Virus record (IMG/VR): IMGVR_UViG_3300037502_002100
Span: 1-35,219 of that record
DNA: 35,219 nt
DNA from: a virus
Reading direction: 5' to 3' (one strand)
Part shown: piece by piece, positions 4,261 to 32,571 of the stretch
Layout of the letters: every line of letters starts with the position of its first letter
Position numbering within the stretch: position 1 is the first letter of the stretch
Notes under the pieces: model-generated
The model's database searches: none
Told to the model about the DNA's origin: nothing
The model's input: only the letters and a program-made list of their open reading frames with translations
Made by a program: the position numbers and the translations under genes

Positions 4261-4500
4261 TTATTTTTCCGCTACAAATTCAGTTTTCAACCATTGTCTG
4301 AAAGCTCGTTGTATGTTCACTTGTTGCGATTGCGCTTCGAGTTCTGCGTCTGCAATTATGATATTATCAACTCTTCTAACTTCATTTAAGAACAAATTAG
4401 CATACTTCTTTGAGTTTCTGAATAGTTCTATATCTTCTAATAAATCAGCGAGTACAGGAAGTAAACCAACGACTGCGAGTAGTTTCTGTTCTTGTGTCAT
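4261..4500 (-). CDS. Hypothetical helical protein
   Basis: A 79-residue protein starting MTQEQKLLAVVGLLPVLADL. I chose the ATG at 4500 because it overlaps the stop of the upstream 40-codon gene as ATGA; the longer frame from 4569 would lie mostly inside that gene. It is predicted all-helical, with a charged second half. No family recognised. It lies between a small membrane-protein gene and the adenine methyltransferase. Confidence 0.75.
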   Translation of the reverse strand: MTQEQKLLAVVGLLPVLADLLEDIELFRNSKKYANLFLNEVRRVDNIIIADAELEAQSQQVNIQRAFRQWLKTEFVAEK

Positions 4501-21470: not shown

Positions 21471-22085
21471 ATGGCAAAAAAAAATATAAATATTTTCTAT
21501 CCGTTTAAAAAAGGAACTGATAAAACAGATTTAAACGCTTCAATTAAATTGATTAAACGTGAATATCCAGACGCAACTATTCACATTGACGACAAAGATT
21601 ATAGCACAATTAGAGGAGTTGACGTTGCACATAAAGTAATCAACTATGCACGTGAAAATAAAGGTCGATTCTTGTATATGAATGATGACTTTTTAGTCGT
21701 TAAACAACCACACAAAGCAATGTATTCAGGGGAATTAAAAGTAAACCCTAAACACCCTATAAGCTATCAAGTAGCAAGTCAGAATACTATTGATTTTCTT
21801 AATAGTTGTGGTAAGCCTTTAAAGAATTTTGAAACACATTCCCCCGTTTGGTTTGATTGTGAAAAGGTTATTGAACTATTTGACCAAATCACTTGGAAAA
21901 ATGACAACTTCTTTATCAAATCATTATACTTGAATTATTATGAATTGATAGGTTTTGAGGGTGCGAACGTAAAAATCCACCAAACAAATGTACCCTTAGC
22001 ACAAAGCCACCTAAAAAAATACGGTTGCGTTTCGTTAGGTGACGGTTTCGATATTAATAGCTTGAAGTCGATTCTTGAACTCTAA
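21471..22085 (+). CDS. Lone plus-strand GT-A/Stealth-like glycosyltransferase candidate
   Basis: A 204-residue protein and the only plus-strand gene. It reads NINIFYPFKKGTDKTDLNAS at the start, then RFLYMNDDFLVVKQ (about 63-76), where NDD is the probable metal- or donor-binding motif, MYSGELK, NFETHSPVWFD and FFIKSLYLNYY. This run of an NDD motif, an HSP motif and a late xIKSLY segment recalls Stealth-type capsular polysaccharide transferases and related phage proteins. It probably transfers a sugar or sugar phosphate, perhaps altering the host surface or virion. It is inserted between tape measure and protease, overlaps the tape-measure end by 32 bases, and has no visible promoter. Confidence 0.6.
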   Translation: MAKKNINIFYPFKKGTDKTDLNASIKLIKREYPDATIHIDDKDYSTIRGVDVAHKVINYARENKGRFLYMNDDFLVVKQPHKAMYSGELKVNPKHPISYQVASQNTIDFLNSCGKPLKNFETHSPVWFDCEKVIELFDQITWKNDNFFIKSLYLNYYELIGFEGANVKIHQTNVPLAQSHLKKYGCVSLGDGFDINSLKSILEL

Positions 22086-26483: not shown

Positions 26484-27964
26484 AGTATTTGAGATTTATA
26501 GTCGAATGTACGTTTTGCCGTTACTTGTTCTTGAATCAACATATCACGCTTAGAAGTCTTTTGACGGCTCAACTCATTCATAACATTCAATGGTTCGTAA
26601 GACCAACTTGGAACGGTAAGCATTACAGGGTTGACCTCAAAGGCTTCAAGAAAATCATCTCCGCTAGTTGTTAATGTATAATTTCCGAAAGGGCAATTTT
26701 CAGTTGTATTATTAACAGCATAAAATATATTTAAAGTAACTCTTCTTAATGACCATTGTGTTTCCGCTAAATTTCTATCTATGTAACAATTAAATCCATT
26801 TACTACTAAATAATAATTTCCATCTTCATTTAAATCCAACGCCACCGTAACAGGCTCTTCACCTACTAAGGTATAGGTAACAAGGATTGAGTCGCACGTT
26901 TCCGATTCTTGCTGTGTGAAATCAACGCTTTCAATGTAGACTAACGGTGATTCATATAGCGACCTTACAAGCCAATTCTGTATAGTTGGTTTAATCCAAT
27001 CACTATTTAGAATCAGTCTATCAGTAACCTCTTTCAAATGCGTTAAGTGTTGACCGTTAGCAATTGCATAATTGTAACCACTATCCGACCATTGACCGAG
27101 TGTTGACTCGTGCATTATCGTTTTAATATCGCTTTCACTAATTGAATCTAACTTGAACGTATAAGCATCCCAAACACCGTACTTATTAAGCCAAACAAGT
27201 CTAACATTTGGATAGCGTTCACATTCTCGGTCAATGTAGAATCTGAATGTTTCGGACGTGCTTAAAAGTCCAGCGATAAAGACTTCATAGTAATAGCAAT
27301 TGTCAAATGAAACACCCGTTAATTCTTCAATCAAAGCTACATTTGGATTGATTACAAACAGATTAGAACCGAAAGCAATTGGTAAAGATGTGTTGGTTAT
27401 TTCATTCCCACTAATGTCGTATAAATAAACATTTACACCCGTAATATTATTATTTGTCATCATTCCAATATAGCACGAATCCGTACTCCTAACGAATTGC
27501 TTTTCAGTCCTTGGAAAATCTGTTAAGAACTTTTTAAAATTAGTACTATCACTATTCAATGTATAGTCGTTCCAATTCCATTGCAACCACCTATCCGTTC
27601 TAAGCGAACCGTTAAATGCTCTTAATTCTGTACTTGTTGCAGTATCGTGTGTTGCGCCTGTGTAATATTCAGTTACCGTAATTTGATACTCGCAAATTGA
27701 ATTAAAATAATCGGTTGTAATTTCACTCAAAGCTAATATCGAACTCGTTAAACGTGCCTTTACAACCTCGCTACAATCGAACCTCGCTTGACCTACATTC
27801 GTATTGTAAACTTCGTGTTGTGAAACGAATACACCATTGACTTCTACATCAACTATGTATTTAAAATCCGCTTCCGTTCCGTGGTCTAACGAATAGAAAA
27901 CGAAATTTAAAGGGTTATAAACGGGGCTGAACGGCTGTGGCTCAGATATAAATAGTACACTCAT
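26480..27964 (-). CDS. Tail protein, probably tail-tip or baseplate component
   Basis: A 494-residue protein starting MSVLFISEPQPFSPVYNPLN. It is beta-rich with Ig-like pieces (KYIVDVEVNGVFVSQHEVYN, CEYQITVTEYYTGATHDTAT) and contains an aromatic-rich centre (TDRWLQWNWNDYTLNSDSTN). The C-terminal part ends in a helix (VMNELSRQKTSKRDMLIQ). Found between the small tail gene at 27961 and the large tail-tip protein, with ATGA overlaps on both sides. Its close link to those genes supports a virion role; no specific domain is recognised. Confidence 0.68.
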   Translation of the reverse strand: MSVLFISEPQPFSPVYNPLNFVFYSLDHGTEADFKYIVDVEVNGVFVSQHEVYNTNVGQARFDCSEVVKARLTSSILALSEITTDYFNSICEYQITVTEYYTGATHDTATSTELRAFNGSLRTDRWLQWNWNDYTLNSDSTNFKKFLTDFPRTEKQFVRSTDSCYIGMMTNNNITGVNVYLYDISGNEITNTSLPIAFGSNLFVINPNVALIEELTGVSFDNCYYYEVFIAGLLSTSETFRFYIDRECERYPNVRLVWLNKYGVWDAYTFKLDSISESDIKTIMHESTLGQWSDSGYNYAIANGQHLTHLKEVTDRLILNSDWIKPTIQNWLVRSLYESPLVYIESVDFTQQESETCDSILVTYTLVGEEPVTVALDLNEDGNYYLVVNGFNCYIDRNLAETQWSLRRVTLNIFYAVNNTTENCPFGNYTLTTSGDDFLEAFEVNPVMLTVPSWSYEPLNVMNELSRQKTSKRDMLIQEQVTAKRTFDYKSQIL

Positions 27965-28458
27965 TTTGCTAATTTATTAAATTTTGCTTCAAACTGCAAA
28001 CCAGTCATTTCTTCGAGTAGTCTTGCAACGTCATTTAGTAGGGTTTCGTTGATAACGTTTGCTGTAATGTTACGGGGTTTTATACCTCGTTGTTTAATGT
28101 TGAAACTTATTCCGTAAGCGTGTCCAATTTCAACACCGTATGCTTGTTGGATAGCTTTTGCCATATTAGGACTTACTGTTGGCGTTTTGAATTTATAAAT
28201 CGAACCTTGTGAATTAGATAAACCGTCTACCCCTTGGTCTTGAAATTTATAATAAAAATCGGCTTGAACTTCAAACGATAGCGAACCCGTAGGAAAATAA
28301 ACAACTGATTGCGCTAAACCTCCTAAATTGTGAACGTTCTTTCTAACGTAGTCAGATAGTTCGTCAGTTACCAATTGACCTATTGTAGTAACCAATTTCT
28401 CATAGTCACTCAAAGGCTCATTGCTAGCTACTATCCCTAAGTCATCAAACGTTTTCAT
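27961..28458 (-). CDS. Tail or neck component (gp10-like candidate)
   Basis: A 165-residue protein. It has a helix near the start (DYEKLVTTIGQLVTDELSDY), then VHNLGGLAQSVVYFPTGSLS and a DFYYKFQDQGVDGLSN loop, and a C-terminal helix (LNDVARLLEEMTGLQFEAKF). The layout recalls HK97 gp10-type tail-completion proteins, where a Y..Y.. GvdG loop follows a short beta region. It lies just after the frameshift product and overlaps its end by 14 bases. Role is inferred from position and this resemblance. Confidence 0.6.
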   Translation of the reverse strand: MKTFDDLGIVASNEPLSDYEKLVTTIGQLVTDELSDYVRKNVHNLGGLAQSVVYFPTGSLSFEVQADFYYKFQDQGVDGLSNSQGSIYKFKTPTVSPNMAKAIQQAYGVEIGHAYGISFNIKQRGIKPRNITANVINETLLNDVARLLEEMTGLQFEAKFNKLAK

Positions 28459-29169
28459 TCAATTGTTCTTTTCGTTTTTCGTTAAAAAAATGCAACCAAA
28501 ACAAGGTAGTGACATACGGTTGTCGTGTTACTTCTTTGATTGAAATCCGCATATCTTCCGCAACTTGTACCACAATCTTTGTCCATAAGTACCACTCATT
28601 TCTTTCTGTTGTGTCCTCATCGTTGCTATCGCTCTCGCTGTCTTCACTCCCATTATAGCCAGCTTCCGCTTGTCTAAGTTGTGCAAAAAAAAACCTTGGA
28701 AATTTAAGTATTCTTGCCACGGAAAATGCAACCTAAACAATTCCTCTCGTTCGCTGTTTGGATTTATCACTTTGCCCTTTTCCTCTTGGCAGTATTCCAT
28801 ACCCTCCTCAACATAGAATATAGCTAATAGCTTTTGTGGTTCGTTTAGCAACTCTGACTTACTCATGTTCTTTAAGTCAATAATCTGACCTGTTGACCAA
28901 TGTTGACGATTTGTGCTAAACGTGTAAACCTTGCCTTGTATTTCAATTCGTTCTGCAGGATTGGATTTCTTATAAGTCGAAAGTAAATCTATGTAATGGT
29001 TTGAAATCCTTAACACATCCTCAACGTGTGACTTGCGTACCTTAGAAAGCATTTCGTCACGGAATATAGAAACAACCTTAGCCCTAAATTCTAAGTTATC
29101 TAATAACTCCTCAAGTTTTACGTCTGCTGTTACTAAGTTCTGCCACTTGGCTAATTGGTCTATTCTCAT
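28445..29169 (-). CDS. Tail assembly chaperone, -1 frameshift fusion form
   Basis: A -1 frameshift at T_TTT_TTT (28687-28693) would join the first 161 residues of the 28528-29169 frame to the 28445-28720 frame, giving about 241 residues. The added part reads FAQLRQAEAGYNGSEDSESD, an acidic linker and then WYLWTKIVVQVAEDMRIS and VTTLFWLHFFNEKRKEQL, a plan like the T part of G/GT chaperones. In siphophages such pairs bind the tape measure and recruit tail-tube protein. No ATG-led start suitable for separate translation of the second frame is evident except at 28720 inside the overlap. The frameshift is an inference from the heptamer and the frames. Confidence 0.65.
28528..29169 (-). CDS. Tail assembly chaperone, unshifted form
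   Basis: A 213-residue protein in the zero frame, starting MRIDQLAKWQNLVTADVKLE. It is helical with a short beta segment (RIEIQGKVYTFSTNRQHW), and has PQKLLAIFYVEEGMEYC before the slippery run. After the run it continues for about 52 residues (LHNLDKRKLAIMGVKTARAI and on), ending in a basic tail. It corresponds to gpG of lambda-type tail chaperones by position in the tail module, though not by clear sequence identity. ATGA-coupled to the large terminase gene. Confidence 0.7.
   Translation of the reverse strand: MRIDQLAKWQNLVTADVKLEELLDNLEFRAKVVSIFRDEMLSKVRKSHVEDVLRISNHYIDLLSTYKKSNPAERIEIQGKVYTFSTNRQHWSTGQIIDLKNMSKSELLNEPQKLLAIFYVEEGMEYCQEEKGKVINPNSEREELFRLHFPWQEYLNFQGFFLHNLDKRKLAIMGVKTARAIATMRTQQKEMSGTYGQRLWYKLRKICGFQSKK
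28685..28693 (-). other. Slippery run for -1 ribosomal frameshift
   Basis: Nine consecutive T on the minus strand follow GG. In the zero frame the codons are GGT TTT TTT TTG, so T_TTT_TTT is a perfect -1 slippery heptamer. The -1 frame is open for 80 further codons. A homopolymer length error in assembly is the main alternative. Confidence 0.65.
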
Positions 29170-30365
29170 ATTCTTGCAATATAGTATTGTCCTTTTGTGC
29201 GTTTCGTCTTATGCGATTGGTTCGCCAAAGATAGTGAAATTACGCTATCATCGTGCATTCCTTGGGGTGCTGAATATTGCACCTTTCGAGTATTTGGATT
29301 GTAGATGTAAGTAAAGTTTTCTAATTCGTCAATTAACCAATCTATGTTTAAAACTTTGATTTCTTTATTCTCAAATGCCACCGCCAAATCTTCAATCATT
29401 ATCGGTTTACTTGAACTACTTGTAACGTGTGGGTAAACTAAGTTTCTGCATTTCTTTTCTAATAGTTCATAAAACACATCGCCTTGGTTGTTTACTTCGA
29501 CCGCAGTCATACAATTGTACTTAACAATCTTTTCAGCTACCTTATCAATTATCGTTGACCATTCTGTTTGCCTCCATCGTTCACAAAATACCATTTCCTT
29601 ACGTTCGTTGATAACTGTTAAAACTGTGTAATCATCTGCTCGTCCGATATCTAAACCACCGTAGTTCTTACCACTTGCACCAACTCCAATACATTCACGA
29701 ACGTTTCTAAATATACCAGTACCACCGTCAATAAATTCTGCTAAGTATTCTTGTCTGAATACGTGGTCAGGTAGTGACCGTTTACGTTCGTCAATTTCTC
29801 GAGTGTCAATCATTGGATTATCATAAGAAGTGAAGCTAAACGACTTGTAACGGTCATCATAGTTGCACTGCATAAATAAGCTATGAAAGTGATTTTTACC
29901 TTTTGGAGTTGAAATAAACAGAACCTTTTTACCTTTAACTAAAACCGTTGCACTAAGCACCTCATCCCAAAGTTCACGCCTTGTAAACGCCATCTCATCA
30001 ACTATAAGAAAGTCAAACGTATTACCACGAATGTTGTCAGGGCGTTCCCCACTAAAGAATTGAATTGTACTTCCTAATCCTTGTATAAGTAATTCAGATT
30101 TATTGTAGCTAAATATTCCGCTGTTTTGTGTGTACTTCTCAAAGTCACTAAACACTTTCTTTGATTGCTTATAAACGGGGGTAACCCACGCTATATTGCA
30201 CCCTTTGTGGTTAATTGACCAGTACAGCATTTGGTTAATACCAAGCATTGACTTACCAAACTGCCTACCAATATTTAAGACGTAATACTTAAACGGCTCA
30301 TTGTTAATAGAGTTATGTATTAATCTTTGTGTAGCGTGTGGTTTATAACCTTTGATTGTTGACAT
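29166..30365 (-). CDS. terL: Terminase large subunit
   Basis: A 399-residue DNA-packaging motor. The ATPase part has Walker A as GRQFGKS (33-39), then WVTPVYKQSKKVF, and Walker B with catalytic Glu as FDFLIVDEMAF (118-127). FISTPKGKNHF is the coupling motif. The nuclease part starts with YGGLDIGRADDYTVLTV (first Asp), with VEVNNQGDVFYELL in the middle and a late HDDSVISLSLA (last catalytic Asp). All motifs of an RNase H-fold terminase are present. At about 400 residues it is on the short side. It is TAATG-coupled to the small subunit and ATGA-coupled to the tail chaperone gene. Confidence 0.93.
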   Translation of the reverse strand: MSTIKGYKPHATQRLIHNSINNEPFKYYVLNIGRQFGKSMLGINQMLYWSINHKGCNIAWVTPVYKQSKKVFSDFEKYTQNSGIFSYNKSELLIQGLGSTIQFFSGERPDNIRGNTFDFLIVDEMAFTRRELWDEVLSATVLVKGKKVLFISTPKGKNHFHSLFMQCNYDDRYKSFSFTSYDNPMIDTREIDERKRSLPDHVFRQEYLAEFIDGGTGIFRNVRECIGVGASGKNYGGLDIGRADDYTVLTVINERKEMVFCERWRQTEWSTIIDKVAEKIVKYNCMTAVEVNNQGDVFYELLEKKCRNLVYPHVTSSSSKPIMIEDLAVAFENKEIKVLNIDWLIDELENFTYIYNPNTRKVQYSAPQGMHDDSVISLSLANQSHKTKRTKGQYYIARI

Positions 30366-30760
30366 TATACATCGAAATCGAATTTATCAACTTGCTTAGT
30401 TTCAGTCTTTTCAGATAGGTTATTTAAACGTTGCGTTATACTTGGATTGTATTGTCCAACCATACCGCCCTCGATTTGGTCTTGACGTATTAAATCCCTT
30501 ATATGCGTACAGATAGTAATATATTCGTTGTATCTATTATCAGGATTATCAAAATATTGTTTAACACAACCTACTAACTTAAAGCAATAAACCCTAAAAC
30601 CCTCAAGTGTTAAAGGTCGTTCAAGTTTCTCATTTTCAGACATACCGTCCTTACCTACGAATACGTGTCTTTTACGTGGGTTTTCTTTCACGTATAATAC
30701 ATACGCTTCAAACAACTCTAAAAGTCGTTCAGGGGTTTCGATATACTTGTGTTTAGCCAT
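30365..30760 (-). CDS. terS: Terminase small subunit
   Basis: A 131-residue protein just upstream of the large terminase, sharing a TAATG junction with it. The N-terminal part (ETPERLLELFEAYVLYVKEN) and GFRVYCFKLVGCVKQYFDNP form a helical DNA-binding region, and DLIRQDQIEGGMVGQYNPSI is the oligomerisation region typical of small terminases of the GGMVGQYN.S type (G..G.fn..i..R.N). The acidic-aromatic tail (DKFDFDV) may contact TerL. It recognises the packaging start site. Confidence 0.85.
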   Translation of the reverse strand: MAKHKYIETPERLLELFEAYVLYVKENPRKRHVFVGKDGMSENEKLERPLTLEGFRVYCFKLVGCVKQYFDNPDNRYNEYITICTHIRDLIRQDQIEGGMVGQYNPSITQRLNNLSEKTETKQVDKFDFDV

Positions 30761-30859: not shown

Positions 30860-31897
30860 TTACTTACAATATTTAATATAAAAAGTATAAGGTACAACTT
30901 TCATTTTAGCAAGTACCCACATTAATAATCTGTATTTCTTGAAATCGTATCTTTCAAATTCATTGCGTTCCATTTTAGTTTTAGGAATTGCAATATCTAA
31001 TTTTTGCTTTTCCCAATGGTGTGCAACTTGAAAGATTCGTTTAGCTTCATTTTTAGTTAGCTTTTCGCTTCTAACTTTTGCCGAAAGGTACACAATTCTT
31101 TTATCAATACCAAATTTAGTAGGTAGTAAGTGACCACCAACGAATTCAGTATAAACATTTTCACAGTGCTTACCACCGTAGTCTTGCCACGAAATAAACG
31201 CTTTCATTTCAGCTTCTAGTTCTTCACGTTCTTTTATATAGTGGAACGGTCGAATGTTCTTAATACCTATTAAAGCGTAAAACAATTGGTCTTTGAAAGT
31301 AAATAAAGGATAGTTTGTTAATTCCTTATTTGTATGCCATTTGTAAACCGATTTGATATACTTTGCATCCATATAAGTCCAACCTTTTGGAGTACTTCCC
31401 TCGGTTCTGAAATCGTGACCGTTTAGAATGTATTTGATACCGTATTTGTAAGCCGTATCGTACATTAACTTAGTCATTGCAATATCATTTGGAATATCGG
31501 CGTCAGGCAATCCAGCTTGAATAAAAGCATCGTTAAGCGTGTCGTATTCCAACTTGTTCACGTTGTAAGTTATCGCATCGACATTTAGCAACTTGATTAG
31601 TTGGCTCATATTGTGCGTAGCTTGTGGCACGTTGTAATGATTGTCAAAGTGAATAACTAAGGGTTTTAAATTCCACTTTTTAACAGCAAGGTAAAGCAAT
31701 AAAGAACTATCAACACCACCGCTAATTCCCATTATACAATCATACTTTTTATTGTTTCGTACCTTATCAAGTAACGGCATCAAATCGCTTGGGTTTGCTT
31801 GTGCTTCTAACTGGTCGTGCAAATCGCAATATTCACATTGAGTATCTCCGATAGTAGCAATCGACTCATCAAATAAACATCTTGGGCATTCTTTCAT
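30860..31897 (-). CDS. PP-loop N-acetyl-sugar amidotransferase-like enzyme
   Basis: A 345-residue protein of the family that includes WbpG and WbuX, which convert an acetamido sugar to an acetamidino sugar in surface polysaccharides. A zinc-like start (CPRCLFDES, CEYCDLH) is followed by YDCIMGISGGVDSSLLLYL (about 53-71), the PP-loop ATP pyrophosphatase motif, then LKPLVIHFDNHYN, DIPNDIAMTKLMYDTA, YILNGHDFRTEGSTPKGWTY and a long helical end. These line up in order with the amidotransferase family. The enzyme needs ammonia from a partner glutaminase, and none is encoded here, so the host may supply it. It shares an ATGA overlap with the glycosyltransferase gene. Confidence 0.75.
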   Translation of the reverse strand: MKECPRCLFDESIATIGDTQCEYCDLHDQLEAQANPSDLMPLLDKVRNNKKYDCIMGISGGVDSSLLLYLAVKKWNLKPLVIHFDNHYNVPQATHNMSQLIKLLNVDAITYNVNKLEYDTLNDAFIQAGLPDADIPNDIAMTKLMYDTAYKYGIKYILNGHDFRTEGSTPKGWTYMDAKYIKSVYKWHTNKELTNYPLFTFKDQLFYALIGIKNIRPFHYIKEREELEAEMKAFISWQDYGGKHCENVYTEFVGGHLLPTKFGIDKRIVYLSAKVRSEKLTKNEAKRIFQVAHHWEKQKLDIAIPKTKMERNEFERYDFKKYRLLMWVLAKMKVVPYTFYIKYCK

Positions 31898-32571
31898 ATT
31901 CTATTTATTTCTCCAAAATTAGTTAATAATTTCAAATCACATTTAACACTTTTTAATTTTCCGTTCCAATGGTCTTCAAACTTATGTTTATTTCCCCACT
32001 TGTTAGTTGAAATCGAAAGACATTGAATCGCTTTTGTGTTTGGTAACAATCCAACGTTTTCAGCTTTCAGATACATTGACCAATCTAAACCAGCGTTTAA
32101 ATGATTATCAAACGGCATAAAGTTAATACGCTTTAAAAAGTCAATCGATAAAACTCTACCTATTCCTATTGGCTCGTTGTGACGGCTACCTTGTGGATAA
32201 CCTTGCCAAAATACCAAACGTTTACTTTCTGCAACATCGACAAAGTGACATCCTGCAACTCCGATAATGTCGTATTTGTTTAAATGTTTTTTACATAACT
32301 TCAAATAAGAATCTGAAATCCAATCACTCGAACCAACAAATAAAACGCTTTCACAATCTGACTTATTGCACGCTTTAAATCCAGCGTTCCACTTAGAACC
32401 TAACGGAGTGTTTGCGTGTTCAATATACTGAACATCTAAGTCTTTACAGATTTGTCTTGCTTGTGGTTCGTTACCGATTCCTATTGGTGTAACGCCTTGT
32501 TTGATTAATCGTTCCATTGTTAGCTTAATTAACGAGAAACGACCGTAAATTGGAATAGGTGCGTAAATCAT
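31894..32571 (-). CDS. GT-A-type glycosyltransferase-like protein
   Basis: A 225-residue protein. It starts YAPIPIYGRFSLIKLTMERL, the first beta-alpha unit of a nucleotide-sugar fold, followed by EHANTPLGSKWNAGF and LFVGSSDWISDSYL, where the SSD is at the place of the DxD metal site of family 2 enzymes. Later RLVFWQGYPQGSRHNEPIGI and FDNHLNAGLDWSMYLKAE complete the fold. It probably transfers a sugar to a surface, virion or nucleic-acid acceptor. It is ATGA-coupled to the amidotransferase gene, so the two likely act on the same product. Confidence 0.65.
   Translation of the reverse strand: MIYAPIPIYGRFSLIKLTMERLIKQGVTPIGIGNEPQARQICKDLDVQYIEHANTPLGSKWNAGFKACNKSDCESVLFVGSSDWISDSYLKLCKKHLNKYDIIGVAGCHFVDVAESKRLVFWQGYPQGSRHNEPIGIGRVLSIDFLKRINFMPFDNHLNAGLDWSMYLKAENVGLLPNTKAIQCLSISTNKWGNKHKFEDHWNGKLKSVKCDLKLLTNFGEINRI

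Follow-up and report, generated by a model that had tools for sequence, protein, structure and literature searches.

The G/GT pair is the textbook case in which ribosomal frameshifting sets a protein ratio in phage assembly, the original tail-frameshift paper reportedly being that of Xu, Hendrix and Duda in 2004, and for dnaX two unrelated slips are known to serve one task. The lambda G/GT shift is described in a review as translational and widely conserved (PMC5009743), and the record of phage P2 likewise annotates the −1 shift of its E/E' pair as translational. In 11 P2-type phages, comprising P2 itself and ten diverse records out of 40 (80 loci of the P2 collection at 99–100% identity being left out), the E/E' slip site was TTTTTTG in nine, TTTTTTC in one and GGGAAAG in one, with no homopolymer above six. 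A second group of systems, represented by Shigella mxiE and spa13, Thermus dnaX and bacterial IS elements, makes use of transcriptional slippage at a conserved run of about nine A/T at the frame transition, yielding products in two frames (PMC5009743, PMC1088944). In many genomes, selection against A/T runs is reported to become apparent at a length of nine, and 9A or 9T runs conserved in homologues have been taken as purposeful transcriptional slippage (PMC1088944). In transcripts of Escherichia coli, single-base insertions in homopolymers are reported to rise with run length up to nine, which is the length of the RNA:DNA hybrid (PMC5574713). Here, we analysed a viral DNA of 35,219 nucleotides (IMG/VR record IMGVR_UViG_3300037502_002100; hereafter the window), in which a −1 frameshift fusing two parts of a tail chaperone had been predicted. 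Our analysis points to a two-product gene of a tailed Bacteroidota phage, most likely a tail-assembly chaperone, whose −1 product is probably made through slippage of RNA polymerase.

The minus strand of the window reads GGT TTT TTT TTG in the zero frame (28695–28684), with nine T at 28693–28685, and from the slip onwards the −1 frame meets no stop until 28445, giving a fusion of 161 + 80 = 241 residues (Table 1). The zero-frame reading of the original prediction and its −1 transition at the T run, with 80 open codons and a fusion of about 241 residues, are thus confirmed by the sequence and, as described below, by relatives. The A+T-rich window contains four T9/A9 runs, as compared to 18.5 expected from shuffles, and the other three (at 1492, 8170 and 21476) lie outside the larger minus-strand ORFs. 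Because a T run alone is unremarkable for this composition, relatives were needed to judge its significance. The run at 21476–21484, also a T9 on the minus strand, falls in a gap of about 600 nt between the tape-measure-like gene and a protease gene (PF14550). The two-frame gene adjoins the terminase and lies on the same strand as, and three to four genes upstream of, the tape-measure-like gene, with a portal gene further along the block (phrog_11226, 1.4e-26). Just upstream of the terminase genes, two minus-strand genes (30860–31897 and 31894–32571) look like metabolic or sugar-modifying cargo, one being PP-loop/NAD synthase-like (PF02540) and the other having no Pfam match.

Table 1. Features of the two-frame gene and its neighbours in the window.
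Feature	Position	Strand	Evidence
Zero-frame gene, short G-like product, 213 aa, ATG start	28528..29169	-	pLDDT 89; profile homologues in 179/209 first-set sequences
N-terminal domain common to both products, 161 codons including two TTT codons	28687..29169	-	
T9 slip run	28685..28693	-	T9 in 194, T10 in 13 of 207 unique regions
T_TTT_TTT heptamer, in phase within the run; potential site of ribosomal −1 slippage	28687..28693	-	sequence itself
T9 with its flanking bases, GG-T9-G; the flanks are over-represented in the family and resemble the E. coli pause consensus	28684..28695	-	
Post-slip −1 frame, 80 codons plus stop, encoding an acidic linker and a T-like domain	28445..28687	-	pLDDT 77, three C-terminal helices (predicted)
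Dual-coding overlap: 52 zero-frame codons and stop, also read in −1	28528..28686	-	recoding null and substitution counts
Terminase large subunit, upstream neighbour	29166..30365	-	PF03237 7.9e-18; phrog_2 7.7e-45
Terminase small subunit-like protein	30365..30760	-	PF16677 GP3_package 2.2e-7
Next gene, 165 aa, start codon inside the end of the −1 frame	27961..28458	-	phrog_29822 (unknown) E 0.01
Tape-measure-like protein, 750 aa	22054..24306	-	phrog_9483 tape measure E 0.06; coiled-coil, hydrophobic look of translation

Relatives were collected by terminase searches. Four queries yielded a first set of 208 loci, or 209 sequences including the window, and three more searches, one of them starting from the highly divergent terminase of cultured phage P12024S, yielded a second set of 130 loci; sites were searched for at thresholds of T≥7 and T≥9 in the first set and T≥8 in the second. 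A profile of the G-like domain matched 179 of the 209 first-set sequences, 168 of which carried a two-frame site, the remaining 11 being cut by a contig end (nine), fused (L138) or broken after 76 codons (L084). The 30 first-set sequences without a G match have a contig that stops shortly past TerL, a gene outside the sampled stretch, or a distant terminase. In the second set, 103 G matches comprised 87 sites, eight in-frame fusions and eight genes cut by a contig end, whereas 12 loci, all marine, matched the T profile only and 15 had no match; L272, L303 and L347 are cut by the contig end, yet carry T9 before it. With the isolate and two contigs from bacterial MAGs, the total came to 258 loci, representing 207 unique regions and 80 clusters (80% nucleotide identity), which are related to one another, so that their counts are not independent. 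In L084, the G-like gene breaks after position 4405 and is followed by opposite-strand coding DNA, indicating either a rearrangement or a chimeric contig.

In the two-frame genes, the run comprised nine T in all but 13 of the 207 unique regions, which have ten, and no other length occurred. It was found in phase 1 in 135 regions, in phase 2 in 66 and in phase 0 in 6, with at least six phase changes on a terminase tree of 45 sequences (leaving out L211, L213, L214 and L216–L219, of which L211 and L213 form very long branches when included). The open second frame was the −1 frame in 207 of 207 regions, in every phase, and each T9 or T10 contained an in-phase T_TTT_TTT. In these regions, the conserved feature is a run of 9–10 T in any codon phase, not the heptamer. 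The original prediction had placed the slip at T_TTT_TTT; this motif is indeed in phase everywhere, but it is the longer run that is conserved, and the expected recurrence in related phages was seen for the T run and both frames in all 207 regions. Homopolymers are error-prone in some methods, and an error in assembly or sequencing, with eight or ten T in reality, had been an explicit worry. The evidence of 207 unique regions in 80 clusters is concordant between independent metagenome contigs, a pair of cultured phages and two contigs of bacterial MAGs, and selection acts on both frames past the run, which leaves an error next to no probability; for the family, this reading is already refuted. 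The run could also act at the DNA level, with replication slippage altering its length and turning the fusion on and off in sub-populations, as homopolymers are typical contingency sites (PMC3711429). Such a 50:50 switch would show both states, whereas the frames are out of register by −1 in every one of the 207 regions, no in-frame variant arises through run length even in the T10 lineages, and the existing in-frame fusions lack the run. Phase variation is consequently very improbable.

In those fusions, namely L138 and the marine loci L216, L217, L306–L312 and L324, both profiles fall within one ORF lacking a T run. The predicted folds of G and T also both find a match in A0A6J7WJY4, a 243-aa viral protein (G, E 1.5e-4; T, E 0.013). 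The existence of natural in-frame fusions argues that the G–T fusion is a real protein form. More widely, L306–L327, L216–L219 and L138, mostly marine, show G and T parts, or a T match, in one uninterrupted ORF without a T run. Cultured relatives are the Nonlabens (Persicivirga) phages P12024S (NC_018271, 23136–23830; L211) and P12024L (NC_018272, 23946–24640; L212), each with one T9 two-frame gene. They share with the window the G profile (E 4e-13 and 2e-13, respectively), the T profile (E 2e-7 and 5e-8), the T9 and the open −1 frame, and differ in having another large terminase and the flanks AC-T9-A instead of G(G/C)-T9-G. Both phages were grown on a flavobacterium, T9 sites are present on the contigs L214 (binned as Chitinophagaceae) and L213 (binned as an unclassified bacterium), and in-frame fusions or single-ORF matches to the T domain are found on contigs from a marine Flavobacteriaceae MAG and from Zunongwangia. 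From the flavobacterial cultured relatives and the Bacteroidota-binned contigs, we infer that these are phages of Bacteroidota. Flavobacterium phage 6H has a G-profile match in gp10 (L224, 10352–10927; E 7.6e-9), with T6C at the site and a −1 frame that stops at once, so that 6H either stands outside the T9 group or is differently arranged. A possible T-like frame lies further on in 6H, and its genome contains seven A/T runs of at least nine.

Downstream of the slip, the zero frame stays open for 49 codons on average (range 28–68, 43 first-set clusters), as compared to 17 under a null model in which the −1 protein was randomly recoded with the codon usage of the family and the open length of the zero frame was scored. 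The +1 frame showed no comparable excess, except in L180, and the null was kept for several single clusters (L016, L029, L111, L201 and others, P over 0.2). In 39 disjoint pairs, drawn without reuse yet from related clusters, fourfold-site differences amounted to 0.342 in the zero frame before the run and 0.277 in the −1 part past the zero-frame stop, whereas in the overlap they dropped to 0.123 when read as zero frame and 0.097 when read as −1, a roughly threefold reduction of synonymous change in both frames. Differences per codon position were.084/.041/.301 before the run and.020/.209/.056 after it, with the overlap being mixed (.055/.121/.107); because the clusters are related, no formal p-value is attached. 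Given the long open zero frame and the lowered synonymous change in both frames, these patterns indicate that the tail of the short product and the linker of the long product are both selected and that the region is dual-coding.

These data also bear on the possibility that no fusion is made, either because the −1 frame is an independently started gene or because the zero-frame tail is an idle by-product. The records of P12024S (gp38/gp39) and P12024L (gp40/gp41) do annotate two hypothetical proteins, with the −1 frame beginning at an internal ATG, and the by-product idea arose because the GAN codons of the acidic −1 linker give ANG in the zero frame, which is never a stop. In the window, however, the −1 frame has its first start codon, a GTG, already upstream of the T9, residue conservation in −1 sets in at the run, and natural in-frame fusions exist. 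Moreover, the zero frame is open longer than recoding predicts and constraint is seen in both frames; taken over the whole set, the recoding null and the substitution counts reject the idle by-product. We therefore regard two unfused products as hardly tenable. The original prediction had explained the overlapping frames by the slip, which holds for the fusion, but the post-slip zero frame is not idle, as its 52-codon tail is under selection.

Which machine slips is a separate question, for which RNA polymerase appears the better candidate because run length is kept over phase, P2-type sites differ, no stimulator is enriched and such runs are absent elsewhere in first-set coding DNA. Ordinary transcripts with U9 would encode the 213-aa G-like protein. 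In a minority of transcripts, a polymerase at the end of the run, holding an entirely rU:dA hybrid, would slip back one base and add one U; as one added U gives exactly the −1 frame, translation of this mRNA would enter that frame and produce the 241-aa G–T fusion. Across the family, the surplus Ts persist while the encoded residues vary: in 51 phase-1 T9 clusters, the codon holding the ninth T specified W in 16, C in 16, Y in 16 and S in 3, which have little in common but the first T. Within a single lineage, the residues encoded in both frames also hold the extra Ts in place, which counts against this reading. Elsewhere in the coding DNA of 44 first-set representatives (215,796 nt), runs of at least nine were absent for both T (1.4 expected) and A (9.7 expected), and 142,944 nt of second-set coding DNA contained no T≥8 and one A9 (a count without computed expectation). 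Downstream RNA structure was not enriched (mean z 0.07 in 43 windows, −0.30 in 172 control windows), although two of the 43, L118 and L165, had z below −2, so that structure in single lineages is possible. Nor were upstream SD-like 4-mers enriched (5 of 44, as compared to 14.3% of 880 control stretches), and Rfam matched nothing in the window.

Programmed −1 ribosomal frameshifting, as for G/GT or P2 E/E', can be considered because T_TTT_TTT always lies inside the run, with extra Ts either raising efficiency or being kept by the residues. P2-type chaperones use T_TTT_TTG, and G/GT is held to be translational (PMC5009743). The absence of a stimulator is not decisive against it. Yet the heptamer needs seven Ts, and none of the 207 regions has fewer than nine: a surplus of two or three Ts is invariably retained, located before the heptamer, after it or on both sides, depending on phase. 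No TTTTTTC, A-run or mixed heptamer takes its place, and the flank bias described below tracks the run rather than the heptamer. Overall, we consider a ribosomal slip unlikely, if by no means negligible.

The bases next to the run are biased. Relative to phase-matched T4–T8 runs in ORFs, the first 44 clusters had G two bases before the run (−2) in 31 (10.5 expected), G or C directly before it (−1) in 41 (25.4) and G directly after it (+1) in 32 (12.4). The bias was retested in 36 later clusters and recurred (20 vs 8.8, 35 vs 18.5 and 19 vs 9.3, respectively), such that the 80 clusters have G at −2 in 51, G, C or A at −1 in 53, 23 and 4, and G, A or C at +1 in 51, 19 and 10. In the 56 phase-1 clusters, the codon with the first T was GTT in 38, CTT in 17 and ATT in one, even though these genomes use ATT more often than GTT or CTT. 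This near-absence of ATT before the TTT codons in phase 1 is not accounted for by the protein. The elemental pause consensus reported for E. coli is G-11G-10T-3G-2Y-1G+1 (PMC6062546). With the RNA 3' end placed on the last T, the flanks correspond to −11, −10 and +1 of this consensus and the RNA:DNA hybrid is taken up entirely by the nine Ts. The polymerase would pause there, on a hybrid as weak as any can be, before moving back by one base and inserting an extra U. The fit is imperfect, as −10 is C in 23 of 80 clusters and +1 is A in 19 of 80, the consensus is that of E. coli rather than of Bacteroidota, and P12024S lacks these flanks. That pause-assisted polymerase slippage sets the ratio of tail chaperones throughout a lineage of Bacteroidota phages is a tentative proposal, possible but somewhat doubtful.

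As to the identity of the products, a tail-assembly chaperone is the best guess, and a rather confident one, given the two products, a small T domain containing Trp and the position of the gene. The structure predicted for G is compact and mostly helical, with a single long helix at its end, and that for T is a flexible acidic linker followed by three helices, in agreement with the originally proposed helical, Trp-containing C-terminal domain, the family having a conserved motif around WGWY. No named family was found for G or T in Pfam or PHROG; phrog_32199, of unknown function, matched 6 of 43 G members, and the Pfam matches obtained for G and T, being single, weak and unrelated, were discarded. 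A fold search of the PDB gave no match for G (best E 2.3; best Z 3.0). In BFVD, G had 31 matches under E 0.001, all unnamed or uncharacterised and including Nonlabens P12024S, T had none under 0.001, and entries named tail assembly chaperone matched weakly (G, E 0.87 and 1.3; T, E 0.43). The predicted G/GT identity thus agrees with the architecture, the location upstream of the tape-measure-like gene and weak fold hints, but not with any family named by sequence; as to its placement in the tail module, the gene lies on the same strand as the tape-measure-like gene and upstream of it, but several genes away and adjoining the terminase.

In comparison with lambda G/GT and P2 gpE/E+E', the gene has in common two products sharing an N-terminal part, a small second domain added via a −1 shift, and a location in the structural block upstream of a tape-measure-like gene. 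It differs in that T9 or T10 occurs in any phase rather than one heptamer in one phase, that the post-slip zero frame spans 28–68 codons (43 first-set clusters) as opposed to 2–16 in the 11 P2-type phages, and that it adjoins the terminase, with no match by sequence or PDB fold. By analogy with lambda, the role of G would be to cover the tape measure protein, while the T domain of the fusion would bring in the tail tube protein. As compared to mxiE, spa13, dnaX and IS elements, the putative slippage concerns a phage assembly gene known here from more than 200 unique sequences, with three phases and a long dual-coding overlap.

These genes form an unnamed family, probably the tail-assembly chaperones (G and GT) of Bacteroidota phages. 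In the literature searched, mostly freely accessible papers, we found no report of a tail chaperone made by transcriptional slippage. If the polymerase reading is true, a large phage lineage makes a G/GT-like switch with RNA polymerase, and two unrelated slips have been recruited for one task. For annotation, the rule would be that two-frame chaperone genes are to be joined at T9/T10, with the short product having its own selected tail in a dual-coding overlap. The family offers many natural variants of one slip site, including a cultured phage pair, and, should the pause reading hold, it would document in nature, within dual-coding DNA, how polymerase slippage is tuned by the length of the run and its flanks.
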